This document shows positions 1 to 6,748 of a stretch of 6,748 bases of DNA, in pieces. The notes under the pieces were generated by a model. It saw nothing but the letters and a program-made list of their open reading frames with translations. It was not told where the DNA came from and searched no databases. How positions within the stretch are numbered: the stretch's first letter is position 1; the number at the start of each line of letters is the position of its first letter. Origin of the DNA: Actinomycetota bacterium (GTDB lineage Bacteria; Actinomycetota; Humimicrobiia; Humimicrobiales; Humimicrobiaceae); contig JAMCQQ010000002.1 in assembly GCA_023379515.1 (NCBI GenBank), positions 1-6,748 of the forward strand, given 5' to 3'. A program made the position numbers and the translations under genes.

Positions 1-3
1 ATA

Positions 4-1188
4 TTAAAAATGCCAAGGAAAAACGCTAAAAATCAAATTAGCAGTATCGGAAGTCCTAGTAGGGGTATAGTAGGCTGTGTATCTTTTTTTGTTATAATTG
101 TAAGCATCCGGCCCTAAATTTTTACGGAATTGACGTTGGACGATTCCTTTTTTAACCGGATCATTGTTTCCCTCAATGCTGACTAAAACTCCATTGCCTT
201 TCTTTATTAAATAATTCACATTTAAAACATAGGATGAATATGGATCAAGATTTTTGATCGGGAATGATTTTTCCAATATTCCATGATCTATTTCCATTGG
301 AAATTCCGCAGGAGTGTCAACCAAATTAACAGGTTCAACTTCATTCAATCCTATTTCATGATTCCCGGCAGATAGCTTAAAGAAACCAAAAGACAATAAT
401 CCGTCCTTTTTCAATTCTCCTCGTCTGGCTATTAAATTATCATCCACTTGAAATAGTATAGATTCGCTGAATGATTTTTTAAAATAGTTATTCCAATTAG
501 GCATGTTAAACAAAAGTTCGTAGCTACCTTCTTTATCTACCGCAAATTGATAAACCGCCCTGTTTACTAAAGGGTAATCTTCTTTTTCCAAGTAACCAAA
601 ACTTGGCTGTATGCCGCTGTCTATAAGAAAACTCTTTAATGCTTCTTGCGTGTTTATTAATTTATCTTTTTTATCAGAAGGAAAAATATCCATGAGCTTC
701 CTTAAAAGTTCAGAATGTCTTGAAAAAATCGTATATAACTCCTCCTGCACTATAGTCTTATCGGCCTTATTTGGGTCATCTCCCAAATTATAAAAGGATA
801 ATTCTTTTAGCTGCCTGTTGTAGTTGCTGAATGCCTTAACTGCTCCGTCAAAATGACCTAATTTCGATTCTTTATCGGCTTCTACTAATCTTTTACCCAA
901 CAAAGACACTCTTTTGATTATTTTAAAGTTTTGGTCGCTAATTCTGGCAGTTTCAAATCTTTCTTTTATCGAAATTAGAGGATATAAAGGAGATGAAGGT
1001 AATATATTTACAGCCGGAAAAACGATATCATCTCTTAAGATTATGCTGGATTCAATATTTTTTTCGCCGATACCAAATTTAAATCTTGGATGGATAATTT
1101 CAAATTTTACCAATCCATCATCAGCTGGGATTTGACTGTTATATAAAGCTGCTGCCTTTTCTGTTTCTACATTTAATATATCTTCCAT
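4..1188 (-). CDS. C-terminal part of a split GT-C-like membrane glycosyltransferase (soluble helical plus beta-rich region)
   Basis: This frame of 394 residues has no predicted membrane segment. Residues 1-75 look like a mixed alpha/beta remainder of a soluble domain. Residues about 90-180 are charged and helical, possibly coiled (segments around SLLGKRLVEADKES and HSELLRKLMDIF). Residues about 195-394 are beta-rich, with patterns such as YQFAVDKEGSYELLF and LSAGNHEIGL that resemble carbohydrate-binding beta-sandwich modules. The assigned ATG has no Shine-Dalgarno upstream. The frame is in phase with the gene ending at 1219 and is separated from it by one TAA and ten sense codons, so I infer that it is the C-terminal part of that protein and not an independent gene. 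If so, it would lie on the same side of the membrane as the tail of the upstream part and could hold the glycan acceptor. The stop (TAA, 4-6) falls three bases from the window edge, so whether the C-terminus is natural cannot be judged. The split is certain; the function is moderate to low confidence. Confidence 0.6.
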   Translation of the reverse strand: MEDILNVETEKAAALYNSQIPADDGLVKFEIIHPRFKFGIGEKNIESSIILRDDIVFPAVNILPSSPLYPLISIKERFETARISDQNFKIIKRVSLLGKRLVEADKESKLGHFDGAVKAFSNYNRQLKELSFYNLGDDPNKADKTIVQEELYTIFSRHSELLRKLMDIFPSDKKDKLINTQEALKSFLIDSGIQPSFGYLEKEDYPLVNRAVYQFAVDKEGSYELLFNMPNWNNYFKKSFSESILFQVDDNLIARRGELKKDGLLSFGFFKLSAGNHEIGLNEVEPVNLVDTPAEFPMEIDHGILEKSFPIKNLDPYSSYVLNVNYLIKKGNGVLVSIEGNNDPVKKGIVQRQFRKNLGPDAYNYNKKRYTAYYTPTRTSDTANLIFSVFPWHF

Positions 1189-1195
1189 CGGACTT

Positions 1196-1254
1196 ACCGG
1201 TTGGAAAGATAGAAGTATTTATGCAGCATAAATACTTCTATCTTTCCAACCGGT
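1196..1254. repeat. Perfect 29+1+29 base inverted repeat with an in-frame stop
   Basis: Bases 1196-1224 are the exact reverse complement of 1226-1254, with a single base (A1225) between. Four more pairs follow outside (1190-1193 with 1255-1258) after a two-base bulge at 1194-1195. Read in the coding (minus) direction, the first arm encodes TGWKDRSIYA of the membrane protein. The second arm is its inverted copy and supplies the stop TAA (1221-1219) and then ILLSFQPV. There is no T-run after it on either strand, so it is not a typical intrinsic terminator. As RNA it would form a stem of about 28 pairs, a possible RNase III substrate. Confidence 0.95.
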
Positions 1255-3030
1255 GTCCATCCAAAAAATTAAACTATCCCCCTCTTTAATTTTTTCTAAA
1301 CTGCTGGCAGAGGCTATCTTCTCTATCCTCCGACTGATAATATCCGGATCCCGCATACCCCGAGCTTTCCAGTCTATATCACTTCTTACCAAAACGTACT
1401 TACTGTTTAAAATATCCATAATTTTTGCTAAACCTTCGCGTGTAGAAATTAACCGTCCTAAAGCACTTGAAATATCATCATAGAAGGGAATATTTGTATT
1501 AAACGAGATTGCTGCCTTCGGCAATAGCTGGTTAGTTAACTCTACCCCTGAATACCCTTTTTCCCATGTATAGGTGATGCCTTCTCCTCCAATCGGCAAA
1601 CCTATCAATCTAAAATTTTCCCTTTGTGAATTTAACCACTTCAACACCTCTTTATAAACTACTGGTACTTTTACACGATAGCCCACTTCCAATTTATTAA
1701 TAGGGGATTCTGTATTAGTAAATACATATCCTGTCCAAAAGGGAAATCCCCAAATTACCAGCAAAAACAAACTTATGACAATCCGTGTAATTATTTTTCT
1801 GCTTAACCCAATTATCCTTTCTATTTCAAAACAACCTGCAGCAAATAATACGGCAGCGGAAAACGATAATATAAATCCAATTTTTTCTAAAGGATTTCGG
1901 AATATCTGCAGAAATGAAAAACTTGAGAAAGTTTTATCAAAAATCTCACCTAAAGGAGGATTATTTCCTTTTGCCAGAAATATCGAAATAAATAGCAATC
2001 CGGCCATCATAATTACATAACCAGATCTTTTTTTAACTATCAAAGGCAATAAAAAAATACCTGAAATTAAAAATTCAAAAAAGACTATTAGATGGAAGGA
2101 GTAAATTCTAACCCAGGCTTGCTGGAATATATCAGTAAAAAAACTGGTATGTTTTAACCTAAATATATAAGTTAAAAATCCTAACCTTTCGCTAAGTAAG
2201 GAAAAAGTATTATAGTTCGTATCCTGTTTAAAAGAAGTTTTAATCACCTCATTAAAACTACCTAATTGCAAATAACTTAATACCTGACTAATCCACCAAA
2301 AATTTGTTAGGAACCAAAAAAATAATGTCAATAAAAAAAACTTAAAAATAAACAACCGTTCACCTCTGTGGGTTATAAAATAAAAAACTCCCAAGTAAAA
2401 TAAAACTCCCCAAAACATAAAAACAAATGCCACCGAAGTTAAAGCATAAGCTAGTAACGCCGAAACAAATCCTATCAAAAGGGCAAATATATAATTTCTT
2501 CTCCTCAAACCCTTAAGAAAAAGATAAACGGAAATAGGTAATAGTGCATAAAAGACAAAAAAGTTATTCAAAAACCTATTCCAAACATTCACAAGAGAAA
2601 AAGGATTAAACCAATAAAATAAAACAGCTAGTAACGCATGTATCCAACCAATGCTTGCAAAAAGCTCTCTGACCAGTTTGTAAATTGCCAACCCTGCTAT
2701 AAGAAAAATTATCCATATAAAAAAAGCTTGTAGAATAAATGTCGGTACTCCTAAATTCTGCAGTTGAGTAAAAAACCAATAGGTCGGTGTTGCGGCCGCT
2801 CCAATATTTAAAGGATGTCCCAATGTATAATATGCCCAAGCATCTTTATTAATATTAAGCTGAATATTAAAATCATAAAAAGGTAAACCTGATTCTCCTG
2901 TACCTAATATCTCCCCACTTTTAAACCAAATTACAACAAGTAGTGCAGGAATTGTTGCTATTATAAATAAGGGAAACCATTTACTATTTACTAATCTTAC
3001 TAATGAGATATTACAAAATAACTTATGCAT
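1219..3030 (-). CDS. Polytopic membrane glycosyltransferase-like protein (GT-C type), N-terminal part
   Basis: This 603-residue protein has about ten or eleven hydrophobic helices between residues 19 and 435 (for example 19-35, 100-118, 155-172, 181-220, 228-248, 310-332, 338-353, 384-402, 415-435). A soluble region follows from about 440 to 603. The first external loop carries acidic residues (E46, D53, D63) in a context typical of GT-C enzymes, which use polyprenyl-phosphate sugars on the outer face of the membrane. A segment FRNPLEK (377-383) before a membrane helix is also typical of large YfhO/arabinofuranosyltransferase-like proteins. The start ATG lies inside the end of the GT2 gene (8-base overlap) with only a weak ribosome site, so translational coupling is likely. 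The frame ends at a TAA inside a perfect inverted repeat, right after GWKDRSIYAA, and stays open in the same phase beyond it. I read it as truncated by that event. Substrate and linkage cannot be told from the sequence. Confidence 0.65.
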   Translation of the reverse strand: MHKLFCNISLVRLVNSKWFPLFIIATIPALLVVIWFKSGEILGTGESGLPFYDFNIQLNINKDAWAYYTLGHPLNIGAAATPTYWFFTQLQNLGVPTFILQAFFIWIIFLIAGLAIYKLVRELFASIGWIHALLAVLFYWFNPFSLVNVWNRFLNNFFVFYALLPISVYLFLKGLRRRNYIFALLIGFVSALLAYALTSVAFVFMFWGVLFYLGVFYFITHRGERLFIFKFFLLTLFFWFLTNFWWISQVLSYLQLGSFNEVIKTSFKQDTNYNTFSLLSERLGFLTYIFRLKHTSFFTDIFQQAWVRIYSFHLIVFFEFLISGIFLLPLIVKKRSGYVIMMAGLLFISIFLAKGNNPPLGEIFDKTFSSFSFLQIFRNPLEKIGFILSFSAAVLFAAGCFEIERIIGLSRKIITRIVISLFLLVIWGFPFWTGYVFTNTESPINKLEVGYRVKVPVVYKEVLKWLNSQRENFRLIGLPIGGEGITYTWEKGYSGVELTNQLLPKAAISFNTNIPFYDDISSALGRLISTREGLAKIMDILNSKYVLVRSDIDWKARGMRDPDIISRRIEKIASASSLEKIKEGDSLIFWMDTGWKDRSIYAA

Positions 3031-3901
3031 TGCATTTTACGAATAATCCGTCGAACGTACCCTTTAGAAATTTTACTCCATCCAAAGTTCTTTTATTAAA
3101 AAATGAAAGAAGAAAATAATAAATGCAAAATAGGATTAGAAAAAAAGAAAATACAAAAAAATTTTTTCCGAATCTTCTCATAAATATTACTCTATTCCTT
3201 CCAACCCAATATGCTCTTGAAAGTACCCTCTCTACATCGTCTTTTGGATCCCAGGATAACTTATGGTATGCCAACGCCTTAGGTGCATAATATGTCTTAA
3301 ATCCTTTCTCTCTTGCACGGAAGCAAAAATCAGTATCTTCATAAACAGCAAAATAACAGTCATCAAAAGAATGTATTTTACTTAATAGTCCATGCTTAAC
3401 TAGTATTGCAGCCGGAGCCACCTGGACTTCTTCAACTTCCTCGTATTGACCTTTATCTTCTCCTCCCCTAAATATTATCCTACCTGTCCATAAATTTATG
3501 GCGGTACCGGCAGACCAAATTATTTTCTTTTTACCCCAATAATATATTTTTGGAGTTACAATACCTATTTTCCCACTACTTTCTGCCACTTTAACAAGTT
3601 CACTGAGCATATTTTTCTCGGCGACCATATCGTGATCGAAAAAAAATAAATAATCTGATGTTAAGTTAGCTTCTTCTATGCCGGTATTTCTTCCTCCAGT
3701 AACTCCTGTATTAGTCTTTAAATCAATAAGTTTTATGGCGGGAAAATTCTTCTTAACCTTTTTTGATGTTCCATCTGTTGATCCATTATTAACTACTATA
3801 ATCTCTCCCGGTTTAAAACTTTGGTTTTGAACTGAGGCTATACAGCTTTTAAGAGTATTCCAGCTATTGTATGTTGGTATAATTACCGAGACCTTTTTCA
3901 T
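3023..3901 (-). CDS. Family 2 (GT-A fold) glycosyltransferase with C-terminal membrane anchor
   Basis: This 292-residue protein starts with the classic GT2 strand VSVIIPTYNS. It continues with NNGSTDGT (38-45, nucleotide binding), NTGVTGGRNTGI (64-75) and the metal-binding DXD-type motif FFFDHD (D89, D91). YEDTDFCFRAREKG (187-200) supplies the acidic acceptor-site residues (E188, D189, D191), as in rhamnosyl- and galactofuranosyl-transferase relatives. A single hydrophobic segment at about 247-268 should hold it to the inner membrane, with the catalytic domain in the cytoplasm. Length is normal for the family. A purine-rich ribosome site (AAAAGG, complement of 3905-3910) precedes the ATG. The gene overlaps the downstream membrane glycosyltransferase by 8 bases, which suggests one operon making a cell-surface glycan. 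IS-A is inserted 35 bases upstream of the start in the same orientation, and the transposase frame runs 38 bases into this gene in another phase. The donor sugar is not deducible. Confidence 0.88.
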   Translation of the reverse strand: MKKVSVIIPTYNSWNTLKSCIASVQNQSFKPGEIIVVNNGSTDGTSKKVKKNFPAIKLIDLKTNTGVTGGRNTGIEEANLTSDYLFFFDHDMVAEKNMLSELVKVAESSGKIGIVTPKIYYWGKKKIIWSAGTAINLWTGRIIFRGGEDKGQYEEVEEVQVAPAAILVKHGLLSKIHSFDDCYFAVYEDTDFCFRAREKGFKTYYAPKALAYHKLSWDPKDDVERVLSRAYWVGRNRVIFMRRFGKNFFVFSFFLILFCIYYFLLSFFNKRTLDGVKFLKGTFDGLFVKCNA

Positions 3902-5000
3902 AATCCTTTTCTATCATATCAAAGTTATAATAGCAATTTTCTGTACTGGATGAGTACATCGGTAACACTTTGTAATAATCATCAAGGTACTGCAATGGAG
4001 TTTTGTAGTCAAGGGTTTGATGGGGTCTTCTGAAATTATACTCAATAAGCCAGTCTGTTAAGGCTTGATTAAATTCATCAATAAAATAAGGGTCAACATC
4101 TGCCATTTCCACAAACTCTTCCTGAATAGTCCTGTTAAATCTTTCCAAAACTGAATTATCCTTTGGAGTATGAGGCCTGGAATACCATTGAGGTATTTGT
4201 AACTGTATGCAGGCCTCCTCAAACTCCTTTTTAAACTCACTCCCATTATCAGAGTGTATATTAATTACTTTGTGATCTGTTAAATAATTAAGCCTTTCTA
4301 AAAAGTCTTTAGCATTCCTTGATGAGTGGGTAGAATAAGCCCAGGCATAGGCCATTTTAGATACCTCATCAATGGCTGTTAAAAGATATCTGTATCCTCC
4401 TGCTGAGAGAGTTAAAATAACTGTGTCGATATGCCATAAAAAGTTAACTTTGTTTTCTTTGATAAGCTTGGTAATCCTTTGTTTTTGGTGAGATTTAGCC
4501 TGGATTTGTTTGTTTCTCAACCTGGAGGCTTTGACTTTGTCAGGATATAAACTATCTTCCTCAATTACTTTTTGGATTTTCCAGGAAGAGATTTTCTCCT
4601 GGTATAAAGCAAGATATAGGTTTACCAGTTTCATCTTGCCATACTTGTAATGGCTTTTTCTTAAGGCTCTGATCCTCAGCCTTTGCTCTAAGCTAACCTG
4701 TCTTTTTCTCCTGGCAATAGGAGCTCTTGATTCTTCTTCTAAACCTGCCAGACATTTCTCTTTAAATCTTTTCAACCATTTATGAAAAGTTTTTCTGGTA
4801 ATCCCAAAGTGGTTGGCTACTAATGAAGCATTTCCCTCTGCCTGAAGATGATAGAAAATAATCCACTCAAGCTTCAGTTGGGCAGAAGCATTAACTTCCT
4901 TTCTGGCTCTTTCTCTTAAGCTGTTCCACCTATGAGAACCTGTTTTTAAATGGTCTTTGGTTAGAAAATAATGATACCCTCTCCAGGAATCAAATGTCAT
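3864..5000 (-). CDS. IS481-like DDE transposase of IS-A, with host-encoded C-terminal tail
   Basis: This 378-residue transposase catalyses cut or copy and insertion of IS-A. Residues 1-45 are basic and variable. A helix-turn-helix lies at about 55-80 (VANHFGITRKTFHKWLKRF), followed by a second helical DNA-binding region at about 100-150. The integrase core runs from about 185 to 300, with the DDE triad D192 (in WHID), D251 (in HSDNGSEF) and E286 (in LERFNR). The D-to-E spacing of 34 residues is as usual for IS3/IS481-type enzymes. All catalytic residues are present, so it may be active. The ATG follows AAGGAGG at a long spacing of 12 bases; nearby GTG is out of phase. The frame has no stop within the IS: the element ends after T353, and the last 25 residues and the TAG come from host DNA, overlapping the GT2 start by 38 bases. 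It is clearly related to the IS-B transposase but well diverged from it. Confidence 0.9.
   Translation of the reverse strand: MTFDSWRGYHYFLTKDHLKTGSHRWNSLRERARKEVNASAQLKLEWIIFYHLQAEGNASLVANHFGITRKTFHKWLKRFKEKCLAGLEEESRAPIARRKRQVSLEQRLRIRALRKSHYKYGKMKLVNLYLALYQEKISSWKIQKVIEEDSLYPDKVKASRLRNKQIQAKSHQKQRITKLIKENKVNFLWHIDTVILTLSAGGYRYLLTAIDEVSKMAYAWAYSTHSSRNAKDFLERLNYLTDHKVINIHSDNGSEFKKEFEEACIQLQIPQWYSRPHTPKDNSVLERFNRTIQEEFVEMADVDPYFIDEFNQALTDWLIEYNFRRPHQTLDYKTPLQYLDDYYKVLPMYSSSTENCYYNFDMIEKDYEKGLGNYTNIQ
3937..3941. repeat. Target site duplication of IS-A, right copy
   Basis: TTTTC lies directly outside the right tip of IS-A and equals 5071-5075 outside the left tip. Five bases in an AT-rich region is a short match, but it falls exactly at the boundaries set independently by the TG-starting terminal repeats. 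Confidence 0.75.
3942..3968 (+). repeat. Right terminal inverted repeat of IS-A
   Basis: Read inward it starts TGTACTGGATGAGT and then ACATCGGTAACAC. It pairs with the left repeat at 5043-5070, one base longer. It lies inside the transposase reading frame (codons for VLPMYSSST), so the enzyme's C-terminal residues and the end of the element are the same DNA. Confidence 0.85.
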
Positions 5001-5058
5001 CGGTTTTTCTCACCTCCTTAAGGTATAAACTATACCTTAGATGTGTAACCGATGTTTC
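4998..5058 (-). promoter_or_regulatory. IS-A transposase leader: promoter, hairpin, Shine-Dalgarno and start-codon anti-sequence
   Basis: In the coding direction a -35-like GAAACA (5058-5053, inside the left terminal repeat) stands 18 bases before a -10-like TATAGT (5034-5029). The -10 sits within a 9-bp perfect hairpin TAAGGTATA/TATACCTTA with a 3-base loop (5019-5039). The hairpin ends exactly where the strong Shine-Dalgarno AAGGAGG (5019-5013) starts. CATCGGTT in the terminal repeat (5054-5047) is complementary to AACCGATG, which contains the start codon (5005-4998). A transcript started here would begin near the Shine-Dalgarno and leave the start free, while read-through RNA could fold and hide it. 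The structural match is seen; the regulatory role is inferred from known IS10/IS50-type behaviour. Confidence 0.55.
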
Positions 5059-5070
5059 TCATCTTCTGCA
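5043..5070 (-). repeat. Left terminal inverted repeat of IS-A
   Basis: Read inward on the minus strand it starts TGCAGAAGATGAGAA and then ACATCGGTTACAC. The inner 13 bases match the right repeat at all but one position. Part of it (CATCGGTT) is also complementary to the start-codon region of the transposase. Confidence 0.85.
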
Positions 5071-5075
5071 TTTTC
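5071..5075. repeat. Target site duplication of IS-A, left copy
   Basis: TTTTC directly outside the left tip of IS-A, identical to 3937-3941. Confidence 0.75.
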
Positions 5076-5194
5076 TTTATTAATCAGCAATAATTTTACA
5101 AGGTCTAAATTTTTCACTTTAACTGATAATTTCCAGTTAATCCCTACCTAAAAATTACTAACTATAGTTGTTTTTGTATAAACCAATAAATATA
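5076..5194. other. Host DNA remnant between the two insertion sequences
   Basis: These 119 AT-rich bases hold no credible gene. They contain a 7-bp inverted repeat with an 8-base loop (5119-5140) and a short palindrome AACTATAGTT (5160-5169). Because IS-A has a target duplication, this stretch was originally joined to the GT2 leader. It therefore probably holds the native upstream region, and perhaps the promoter, of the glycosyltransferase operon. Nothing more specific can be supported. Confidence 0.6.
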
Positions 5195-5222
5195 TGAGTA
5201 GGCTGAGATACATCGGTAACAC
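5195..5222 (+). repeat. Left terminal inverted repeat of IS-B
   Basis: It starts TGAGTAGGCTGAGAT and then ACATCGGTAACAC. The inner 13 bases are identical to the right repeat of IS-A and differ by one base from the left repeat of IS-A. Confidence 0.83.
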
Positions 5223-5268
5223 ATCCAAGTTAGAATAACTAACTTAAGGAGGTGATTTTAAACCGATG
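5207..5268 (+). promoter_or_regulatory. IS-B transposase leader: promoter, hairpin, Shine-Dalgarno and start-codon anti-sequence
   Basis: The leader has the same design as in IS-A. A -35-like GATACA (5207-5212) in the terminal repeat stands 18 bases before a -10-like TAGAAT (5231-5236). A 7-bp hairpin AAGTTAG/CTAACTT with a 5-base loop (5227-5245) directly abuts the Shine-Dalgarno AAGGAGG (5246-5252). CATCGGT (5211-5217) is complementary to ACCGATG around the start codon (5262-5268). The hairpin stem sequence differs from that of IS-A while the position and pairing are kept, which supports a selected structure. The promoter call rests on weak -35 matches. Confidence 0.55.
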
Positions 5269-6336
5269 GGCAAGCATAAATTTCAGAAGCATTTCTACTT
5301 TCCTAGCAAAGACAAACAATTACCAGATAGGTGGAATATCTTAAGGGGATTTGCCAAAAAGGAACTCTCTTTAGATGCTCAAATTAAACTGGAATGGATA
5401 ATCTTCTACTACAGTGTATCTTCAGAAAATGCCAAAGCTACAGCTGCCCATTTTGGGATCTCCAGAAAAACATTCCATAAATGGTTAGGTAGATTTAATG
5501 AAACTCACCTGCAAAGCCTAGAGGAACACTCCAGGGTTCCTCAAAAGACAAGAGATTGGATGGTGACTTACAAGGAAGAGCAGAGAATTATTACCTTAAG
5601 AAAAAAGAACATGGAATTTGGAAAGAAAAAGCTTAAGAAGATTTACAAAAGAGAGTATGGGGAAATAATTTCTACCTGGAAGATTGAAAGAGTGATTAGA
5701 AAGCATAGCCTTTACCCTGATCCTAAAAAACATGGCAAGACTGTTGAGAAAAGAAGGAATCTCAAACCTAAAATTAGGATTAATACTGTTAAAGATCAAA
5801 TTAAACAGATTAAAGAGTTTGGGTTTTTATGGCATATTGATGCCATAATCATCTGGTGGTATGGGCAAAGAAGGATCATATTCACAGCCTTAGAAGAAAT
5901 TACCAAGATAGCCTATGCCAGAGTATACAAAAGTAATACTTCAGGATATGCAGAGGATTTCTTAAAGAGGTTAATGTATCTGGTGGAAGGTAGAGTAGAT
6001 TTAATGCACTCAGATAATGGCTCAGAGTTTAAAGGAGATTTTGAGAGAGCCTGTGAACAGTTAAAAATACTTCAGATTTACTCAAGGCCATATACTCCAA
6101 AAGACAACCCTACCTTAGAAAGATTTAATTCTACCATCCAGCATGAGTGGTTGGACTTTTCTGAGGTAGGGTTAGAAGACATATTAGAGGCAAATTTAGA
6201 CTTAACTACCTGGCTTGTTAAATACAACTCCTACAGACCTCATGAATCACTTGATTTAGATACACCCCTGGAGTATGCTGACAAAATCTTCTTTAACAAA
6301 GTGTTACCTATGTGGCCTGCCTACACACGTGGTTGA
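5266..6336 (+). CDS. IS481-like DDE transposase of IS-B
   Basis: This 356-residue transposase carries a helix-turn-helix at about 55-80 (AAHFGISRKTFHKWLGRF), a basic linker at about 150-180, and an integrase core with D192 (WHID), D250 (HSDNGSEF) and E285 (LERFNS), 34 residues between the last two. The catalytic set is complete. The start ATG follows AAGGAGG at 13 bases; the GTG overlapping the Shine-Dalgarno is out of phase. The IS ends after codon 354 (T), and the final RG and TGA come from host DNA, so the element has no stop codon of its own. The TGA (6334-6336) lies inside the -35 hexamer of the next promoter. The protein aligns along its whole length with the IS-A transposase but with many differences, so these are two lineages and not a fresh duplication. 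Confidence 0.92.
   Translation: MGKHKFQKHFYFPSKDKQLPDRWNILRGFAKKELSLDAQIKLEWIIFYYSVSSENAKATAAHFGISRKTFHKWLGRFNETHLQSLEEHSRVPQKTRDWMVTYKEEQRIITLRKKNMEFGKKKLKKIYKREYGEIISTWKIERVIRKHSLYPDPKKHGKTVEKRRNLKPKIRINTVKDQIKQIKEFGFLWHIDAIIIWWYGQRRIIFTALEEITKIAYARVYKSNTSGYAEDFLKRLMYLVEGRVDLMHSDNGSEFKGDFERACEQLKILQIYSRPYTPKDNPTLERFNSTIQHEWLDFSEVGLEDILEANLDLTTWLVKYNSYRPHESLDLDTPLEYADKIFFNKVLPMWPAYTRG
6301..6327 (-). repeat. Right terminal inverted repeat of IS-B
   Basis: Read inward on the minus strand it starts TGTGTAGGCAGGCC and then ACATAGGTAACAC. One base is missing relative to the left repeat, exactly as in IS-A. It lies inside the transposase frame (VLPMWPAYT). Confidence 0.8.
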
Positions 6337-6361
6337 CAACTTAAGTTTCCTCTTGTACTAT
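6333..6361 (+). promoter_or_regulatory. Sigma70-type promoter for the right-hand gene pair
   Basis: A perfect -35 TTGACA (6333-6338) is separated by 17 bases from TACTAT (6356-6361, four of six matches to consensus). It starts six bases outside the right tip of IS-B. Predicted transcription start is near 6368, giving a leader of only about 17 bases before the ATG at 6385. Confidence 0.55.
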
Positions 6362-6384
6362 AACTCTCAAGCTGCCCGCTACTG

Positions 6385-6672
6385 ATGTCTGAAATAGTTT
6401 TCAATGCTCCAAAACCTAAAAAAGCCCCTCAAACTGATTTAGAGACTCAAGTTGAGAATCTACAAACAACCTTGGCTTCTTTAAACCAGCAAATTATCAT
6501 CCTGCAGGAAACTTTACAGGAAAGGGATCAAAAAATAGCTGAGCTTGAAATGAGATTGGCAAACGGTATTGAGTCTGCGCTGCCGCGCATTGATAATACC
6601 TTGACAATAGTCGGACTCTTCATTAACCTGTACCAACTGATAACCCGGCCCAGAGAGGATAGTGCGGTTTAA
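6385..6672 (+). CDS. Small coiled-coil protein with C-terminal hydrophobic segment, function unknown
   Basis: The protein has 95 residues and I do not recognise its family. Residues 1-17 are a proline- and lysine-containing lead. Residues about 18-60 show heptad-like spacing of L, I and V with many Q and E (from LETQVENLQTTL to IAELEMRL), a strong coiled-coil pattern. Residues 72-87 (TLTIVGLFINLYQLIT) form a hydrophobic helix that could sit in or on a membrane, followed by a charged tail RPREDSAV. It may oligomerise and tether to the membrane. No Shine-Dalgarno is visible before the ATG; the in-frame TAA at 6361 limits extension, and CTG at 6382 is the only other near-start. The next frame begins nine bases after the stop, so an operon is likely. 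Local GC seems somewhat higher than in the glycan cluster. Real-gene status is likely because of the coiled-coil regularity and the promoter. Confidence 0.65.
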   Translation: MSEIVFNAPKPKKAPQTDLETQVENLQTTLASLNQQIIILQETLQERDQKIAELEMRLANGIESALPRIDNTLTIVGLFINLYQLITRPREDSAV

Positions 6673-6681
6673 CCGTTTGAC

Positions 6682-6748
6682 ATGAGTTTGTTAGCAGTGC
6701 TTATTTTTGTAACCTTAAATGAGGCTATTATTGAATTTTTGTTGGCAG
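6682..6748 (+). CDS. Start of a membrane protein, truncated by the window end
   Basis: From the ATG at 6682 the frame is open to the end of the window (22 codons). It encodes a strongly hydrophobic start (MSLLAVLIFVTLNEAIIEFL) that looks like a first membrane helix with an internal NE. It follows the coiled-coil gene by nine bases, with no clear ribosome site. Function cannot be assigned; a small holin-like or other integral membrane protein is possible but unsupported. Confidence 0.45.
   Translation, partial: MSLLAVLIFVTLNEAIIEFLLA

Follow-up and report, generated by a model that had tools for sequence, protein, structure and literature searches.

Organisation of the locus

The window analysed here, a single stretch of 6,748 nucleotides, carries two long open reading frames on its minus strand, which are parts of one gene interrupted by a palindrome. 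The features of this region are as follows.

1219-3030, minus strand: N-terminal part of 603 aa, predicted AftD-like GT-C membrane protein, ending in RSIYAA
4-1188, minus strand: rest of the gene beyond the stop, with 394 codons counted from the ATG at 1188, aligning to homologue residues 615-1006
1226-1254, minus strand: source arm of the palindrome (upstream in gene sense), codons 593-602, ancestral coding sequence, encoding T-G-W-K-D-R-S-I-Y
1225, no strand: single unpaired base at the palindrome centre, from the inverted-repeat search
1196-1224, minus strand: target arm, codons 603-612, derived inverted copy of 1226-1254 that overwrote the old coding tract
1219-1221, minus strand: in-frame TAA within the derived arm, from the sequence and the frame list
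1190-1193, plus strand: GGAC, pairing with the GTCC at 1255-1258 across a 2-base bulge; putative role in the event
1255-1258, plus strand: GTCC, partner of the GGAC at 1190-1193; putative role in the event

The stop codon at 1221-1219 and the ATG at 1188-1186 share one phase on the minus strand and lie ten codons apart, so the frame list agrees with the initial annotation, which had placed only a TAA and ten codons between the two frames. That annotation had also noted that the downstream ATG is without a ribosome site; on inspecting the sequence by eye, we likewise saw no Shine-Dalgarno-like run directly upstream of the ATG at 1188.

The inverted-repeat search recovered the perfect 29-base fold-back that had been described from the sequence. 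Its two arms, 1196-1224 and 1226-1254, are 29 nt each, complementary at 29/29 positions (100%) and separated by a spacer of 1 nt, and the whole forms a perfect palindrome of 59 bp. As had been proposed, the TAA is part of a tract that repeats the coding bases before it exactly, in inverted form. By chance, a sequence of 6,748 independent bases with the same composition as the window would be expected to contain 3.3e-12 perfect repeats of this kind (arms of at least 29, spacer of at most 10). When folded as gene-sense RNA, an 86-nt stretch reached -51.1 kcal/mol (z -11.78), which was equalled by 0/200 shuffles. The outer GGAC and GTCC lie at the coordinates first reported for them, but a 2-base bulge has to be bridged for them to pair in the fold. 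The palindrome survey covered the window together with 38 loci that had been fetched, making up 39 sequences and 227,738 bases, although several of the loci overlap one another. With a minimum arm length of 13 and a maximum spacer of 10, it found only one further perfect palindrome, in L018, with 14-bp arms. This second palindrome (L018 729-757) has one central base and sits within an open frame of 423 codons in a relative, and each of its arms is nearly palindromic by itself.

Gene identity and relatives

Pfam places the N-terminal part close to the AftD GT-C domain, with a score under the curated cut-off (PF11847, E=1.6e-4, 20.2 bits against a 26-bit cut-off). The downstream part gave a weak match to PF18915 (DUF5667; E=0.0054, 17.6 bits, under the 27-bit cut-off), and NCBIfam gave no match to either part at E 0.01. 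We go no further than calling the product a probable related GT-C protein, rather than an AftD-like arabinofuranosyltransferase (PF11847), because the N-terminal part scores 20.2 against the required 26 bits and PF11847 is annotated in 28/57 homologues. Those homologues that carry a name are Patescibacteria, including Candidatus Daviesbacteria, and the broken gene is best explained as belonging to a Patescibacteria relative of Daviesbacteria.

Closer relatives at the DNA level were sought in several collections. A scan of genome contigs gave 5 loci from 103 pattern matches, the best at 61%, and a scan of viral contigs gave 0/19. In the family of G001, 16 of 45 genomes had a match, the best at 60% to P0002, whilst the plasmid collection gave no match to 1-3901 in a near search or to 3864-6748 in a distant search. 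DNA comparisons were made with a nearest locus of about 61% protein identity, and the relatives at about 70%, P0002 and P0003, were compared as proteins. The related genomes G001-G003 each contain several matches to this GT-C family.

The two frames align as one gene

The read-through protein was used as query, with scoring limited to the 7,996 candidates that shared most words with it, and 58 proteins were found: the 603-aa part of the window itself and 57 homologues. All 57 entered the count of gaps and spans, 38 of them formed the alignment (A1), and 13 of these were used for the conservation test. The break site is spanned by 50/57 homologues, with residues on both sides within 560-655, and none of the 57 terminates there. 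The alignment of the joined protein is continuous across the junction: 48/50 spanning homologues are free of gaps at residues 595-620, and the remaining two (P0056 and P0057) each have one residue inserted or missing. The seven that do not span are paralogues of 709-738 aa which align for 18 residues beyond the site, miss a middle segment and then resume; two of the seven miss one residue in 595-620. Moreover, no internal stop was seen in any listed genome match, with matches in 3/3, 6/12 and 16/45 genomes. Frames 3030-1219 and 1188-4 are thus one gene, as the initial annotation had argued. In the shorter paralogues as a group (L009 and L010; P0049-P0055; 709-744 aa) the missing middle segment starts about 18 residues past the break site.

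One arm fits the family and the other does not

Residues W595, D597, S599 and Y601, encoded by the upstream arm, are identical in all 13 of the closest homologues tested. Immediately downstream the picture changes: scored as the fit of the window's protein to the 13 homologues against their fit to one another, residues 602-612, in essence arm 1196-1224, deviate most strongly among the 993 windows of 11 residues (-2.77; mean 0.05, sd 0.48). At junction residues 603-614 the window matches P0002 at 4/12 and P0003 at 4/12, whilst P0002 and P0003 match each other at 11/12. Because the stretch is the most aberrant and its match to these two relatives is so poor, we read arm 1196-1224, with its TAA, as the copy and arm 1226-1254 as the ancestral sequence. 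At the protein level only, one arm fits the relatives (595-601) and the other is newly changed (602-612). The homologues show no difference in length at the site, which points to replacement of an old tract and not to an insertion; about 25-30 bases gave way, with no change in length, to an inverted copy of the bases preceding them.

Two other accounts of the stop were discarded. Insertion of a hairpin or of a mobile element is ruled out by the equal length of 48/50 spanning homologues. An alternative genetic code would be a poor account, since the stop sits in the aberrant arm and reassignment of a codon would not explain the misfit of its neighbours.

The change is clustered and involves many bases: within 8 codons, 10 or more bases differ from back-translated P0002. 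When residues 604-611 of the 15 relatives listed were back-translated, a minimum of 10-14 of the 24 bases differed from the window. The best three (P0002, P0003 and P0004) stood at 10/24, a value reached by 10% of background peptides, so that any trace of an older imperfect repeat in the core lies within background. Over residues 604-614, a stretch which includes bases that were possibly never copied, the same three stood at 11/33 (0.4% of background) and the other twelve at 13-17/33 (3-33% of background). The palindrome centre implies an ancestral G right after the tyrosine codon. Residue 602 is L in the two nearest homologues, and therefore either the ancestor was different at this point beforehand or further changes took place; across the 57 homologues this residue is A in 6/57 and V in 9/57.

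There are 14 private changes in 346 conserved columns, and three of these (591, 603 and 609) are at or adjoin the palindrome. The private change from E to M at residue 591 (1258-1260) lies just beyond the source arm and may be part of one complex event with the palindrome.

Age and constraint

Outside the junction, the N-terminal part of the window is 72% identical to P0002 and 67% to P0003, which are 66% identical to each other; for the C-terminal part the corresponding values are 68%, 75% and 69%. Divergence at the first, second and third codon positions relative to L001, the one locus of six tried that yielded these figures, was 0.27/0.16/0.48 in the N-terminal part and 0.29/0.23/0.53 in the C-terminal part. 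Both parts of the gene show constraint, since third positions differ far more from L001 than second positions do. Neither the identity to P0002 and P0003 nor the codon positions against L001 gave any sign of decay in the downstream part, and the frame contains no further stop before the last bases of the contig (TAA, 6-4). Because there is no other stop up to that point and divergence downstream is not out of the ordinary, the event looks recent; with both halves as close to P0002 and P0003 as these are to each other, and both showing constraint, it is either recent or not biological.

The left end of the contig also departs from the family. Window positions 1-12 read PWHF-stop, against PWNN in 14 listed homologues, about 155 residues short of the usual C-terminus. 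This would be either an error at the contig end or a second lesion. No inverted copy of the left end was found elsewhere in the window, where the longest matches were direct ones of 9 bases.

Origin of the palindrome

The reading that we consider likely is a single template-switch mutation during DNA replication, of the kind that turns a quasi-palindrome into a palindrome, in an AftD-like GT-C gene. In Escherichia coli, such events are described as a stall at a quasi-palindrome, after which the nascent strand is copied and synthesis returns to the template (PMC7202029). Here, a double template switch would have laid down an exact inverted copy in register before returning to the original strand, and would leave a perfect palindrome of 59 bp, no net change in length and an in-frame TAA that cuts the gene at codon 604. 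The double switch suggested in the initial annotation holds up as the best mechanism for such an exact in-register copy. An ancestral outer pairing (GGAC/GTCC and CCGG/CCG) would be the simplest account of the in-register return, in which the GGAC at 1190-1193 may have been the outer stem or the return point. The gene was probably inactivated by this switch, and the truncated product, if real, is predicted to keep the GT-C membrane part and lose the remainder. The event is carried by one contig only, and we infer its origin in the cell, its singleness, the strand, the exact switch points and the loss of function.

Other explanations have to be weighed against a template switch in the cell. That the gene has split naturally into two genuine genes is something we regard as highly improbable: a 394-codon frame does open at the ATG at 1188, but a ribosome site was not seen upstream of it, 50/57 homologues found among the 7,996 scored candidates are fused across the site, and the 394-aa part, used as query against 3,380 candidates (length rule of about 217-690 aa), matched itself alone. 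The search for homologues that naturally end at RSIYAA, with a separate gene downstream, thus returned 0/57. We regard as equally improbable a functional hairpin, in which a regulatory stop (readthrough, recoding or a phase-variable switch) would control a longer product. The very stable predicted fold and the position of the stop just after the loop would suit such a device, but none of the 57 homologues is broken at the site, Rfam gave no match in the window at its gathering threshold, and no terminator-like site was found in 1000-1500, where promoter-like sites numbered 4 against 2.2 expected. Moreover, as judged from the sequence, flipping the one-base spacer keeps the TAA and the former sequence has been overwritten, and therefore the structure is not a simple on/off switch. 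The earlier suggestion of a switch or partial readthrough site accordingly finds no backing in the 57/57 unbroken homologues, and a local flip could not restore the frame.

An artefact of library preparation, amplification or assembly is the alternative to which we give real, if minority, weight; it is possible but unlikely. The contig could contain an in vitro template-switch chimera or low-coverage chimeric reads, and inverted-repeat or palindromic chimeric reads arising in library preparation are documented (PMC10908179; PMC6218980, PMC12870357). The departure of the contig's left end from the family makes chimeric or low-quality sequence plausible, and template switching at the amplification stage could return in register. 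However, the short-read library artefacts described in PMC10908179 are soft-clipped at read ends and appear as low-frequency calls, short-read library chimeras by themselves do not return in register, and an in-register return without change of length needs reads across both switch points.

Within the reading as a replicative template switch, a stronger version is conceivable, namely a long, nearly homology-independent and length-neutral switch in natural Patescibacteria that took place without a strong prior quasi-palindrome, gave rise to the 29-bp fold-back and the nonsense codon in a conserved GT-C gene, and was caught before decay. We think this version improbable. If such switches were frequent in these small-genome bacteria, this would suggest that mutation proceeds in an unusual way in them.

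Comparison with known template switches

The template-switch mechanism is already well known and the present case is a further example. It resembles quasipalindrome mutation, as described for the Escherichia coli thyA hotspot and lacZ QP5/QP6, T4 rIIB and yeast CYC1, in that a repeat would be perfected in one event through copying of the nascent strand and return to the template (PMC7202029). The quasipalindrome reporters described there use an 18-bp quasipalindrome and a 4-bp frameshift, whereas the new arms here measure 29 bp, any ancestral repeat is putative and the outcome is a stop codon. Homogenisation of arms within protein genes is likewise described in the coding genes of natural Saccharomyces cerevisiae isolates, for example in REG2, where a perfect arm of 5 bp became one of 16 bp through seven substitutions (PMC8604942). 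Among the events noted from that source, the longest arm is 16 bp and amino acids are replaced, in contrast to the 29 bp and the nonsense codon found here.

Novel RNA stems offer another parallel, a perfect hairpin made from a reverse-complement repeat in one event, with the largest pattern described up to 59 bp; those stems sit in RNA genes, where a hairpin can be useful, whereas here a protein gene is broken by it (PMC8794818). Short-range switches in great apes also leave nearby perfect inverted repeats, and are described as having had prior structure-forming potential in a subset only; they are reported as depleted in protein-coding regions, whereas the present event lies in a bacterial coding gene (PMC7954356). 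Lastly, the mitochondria of Nematomorpha are described as carrying perfect inverted repeats within protein genes, but those palindromes are numerous and coding in both arms, whilst the one here is single and its derived arm carries a stop (PMC6649704). Among the matches listed from the open-licence literature, we found no such case in Patescibacteria.

At this locus the homologues reveal which arm fits the family and that length was kept, and they allow a cluster of some ten or more base changes, together with a stop, to be attributed to one event. In the annotation of metagenomes, such events may be misread as gene fission, as regulatory hairpins or as many separate substitutions. With the same test, it would be feasible to survey uncultured bacteria for them.

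Neighbouring transposase genes

The window also contains two IS481-like transposase genes, at 3951-5061 and from 5204 to about 6340, which lie head to head. Their matches scored 191.7 and 179.6 bits, under the 224-bit cut-off. For the second element, no right end was located. The similar TGAG..ACATCGGT.ACAC ends of the two elements face each other, 142 bases apart.
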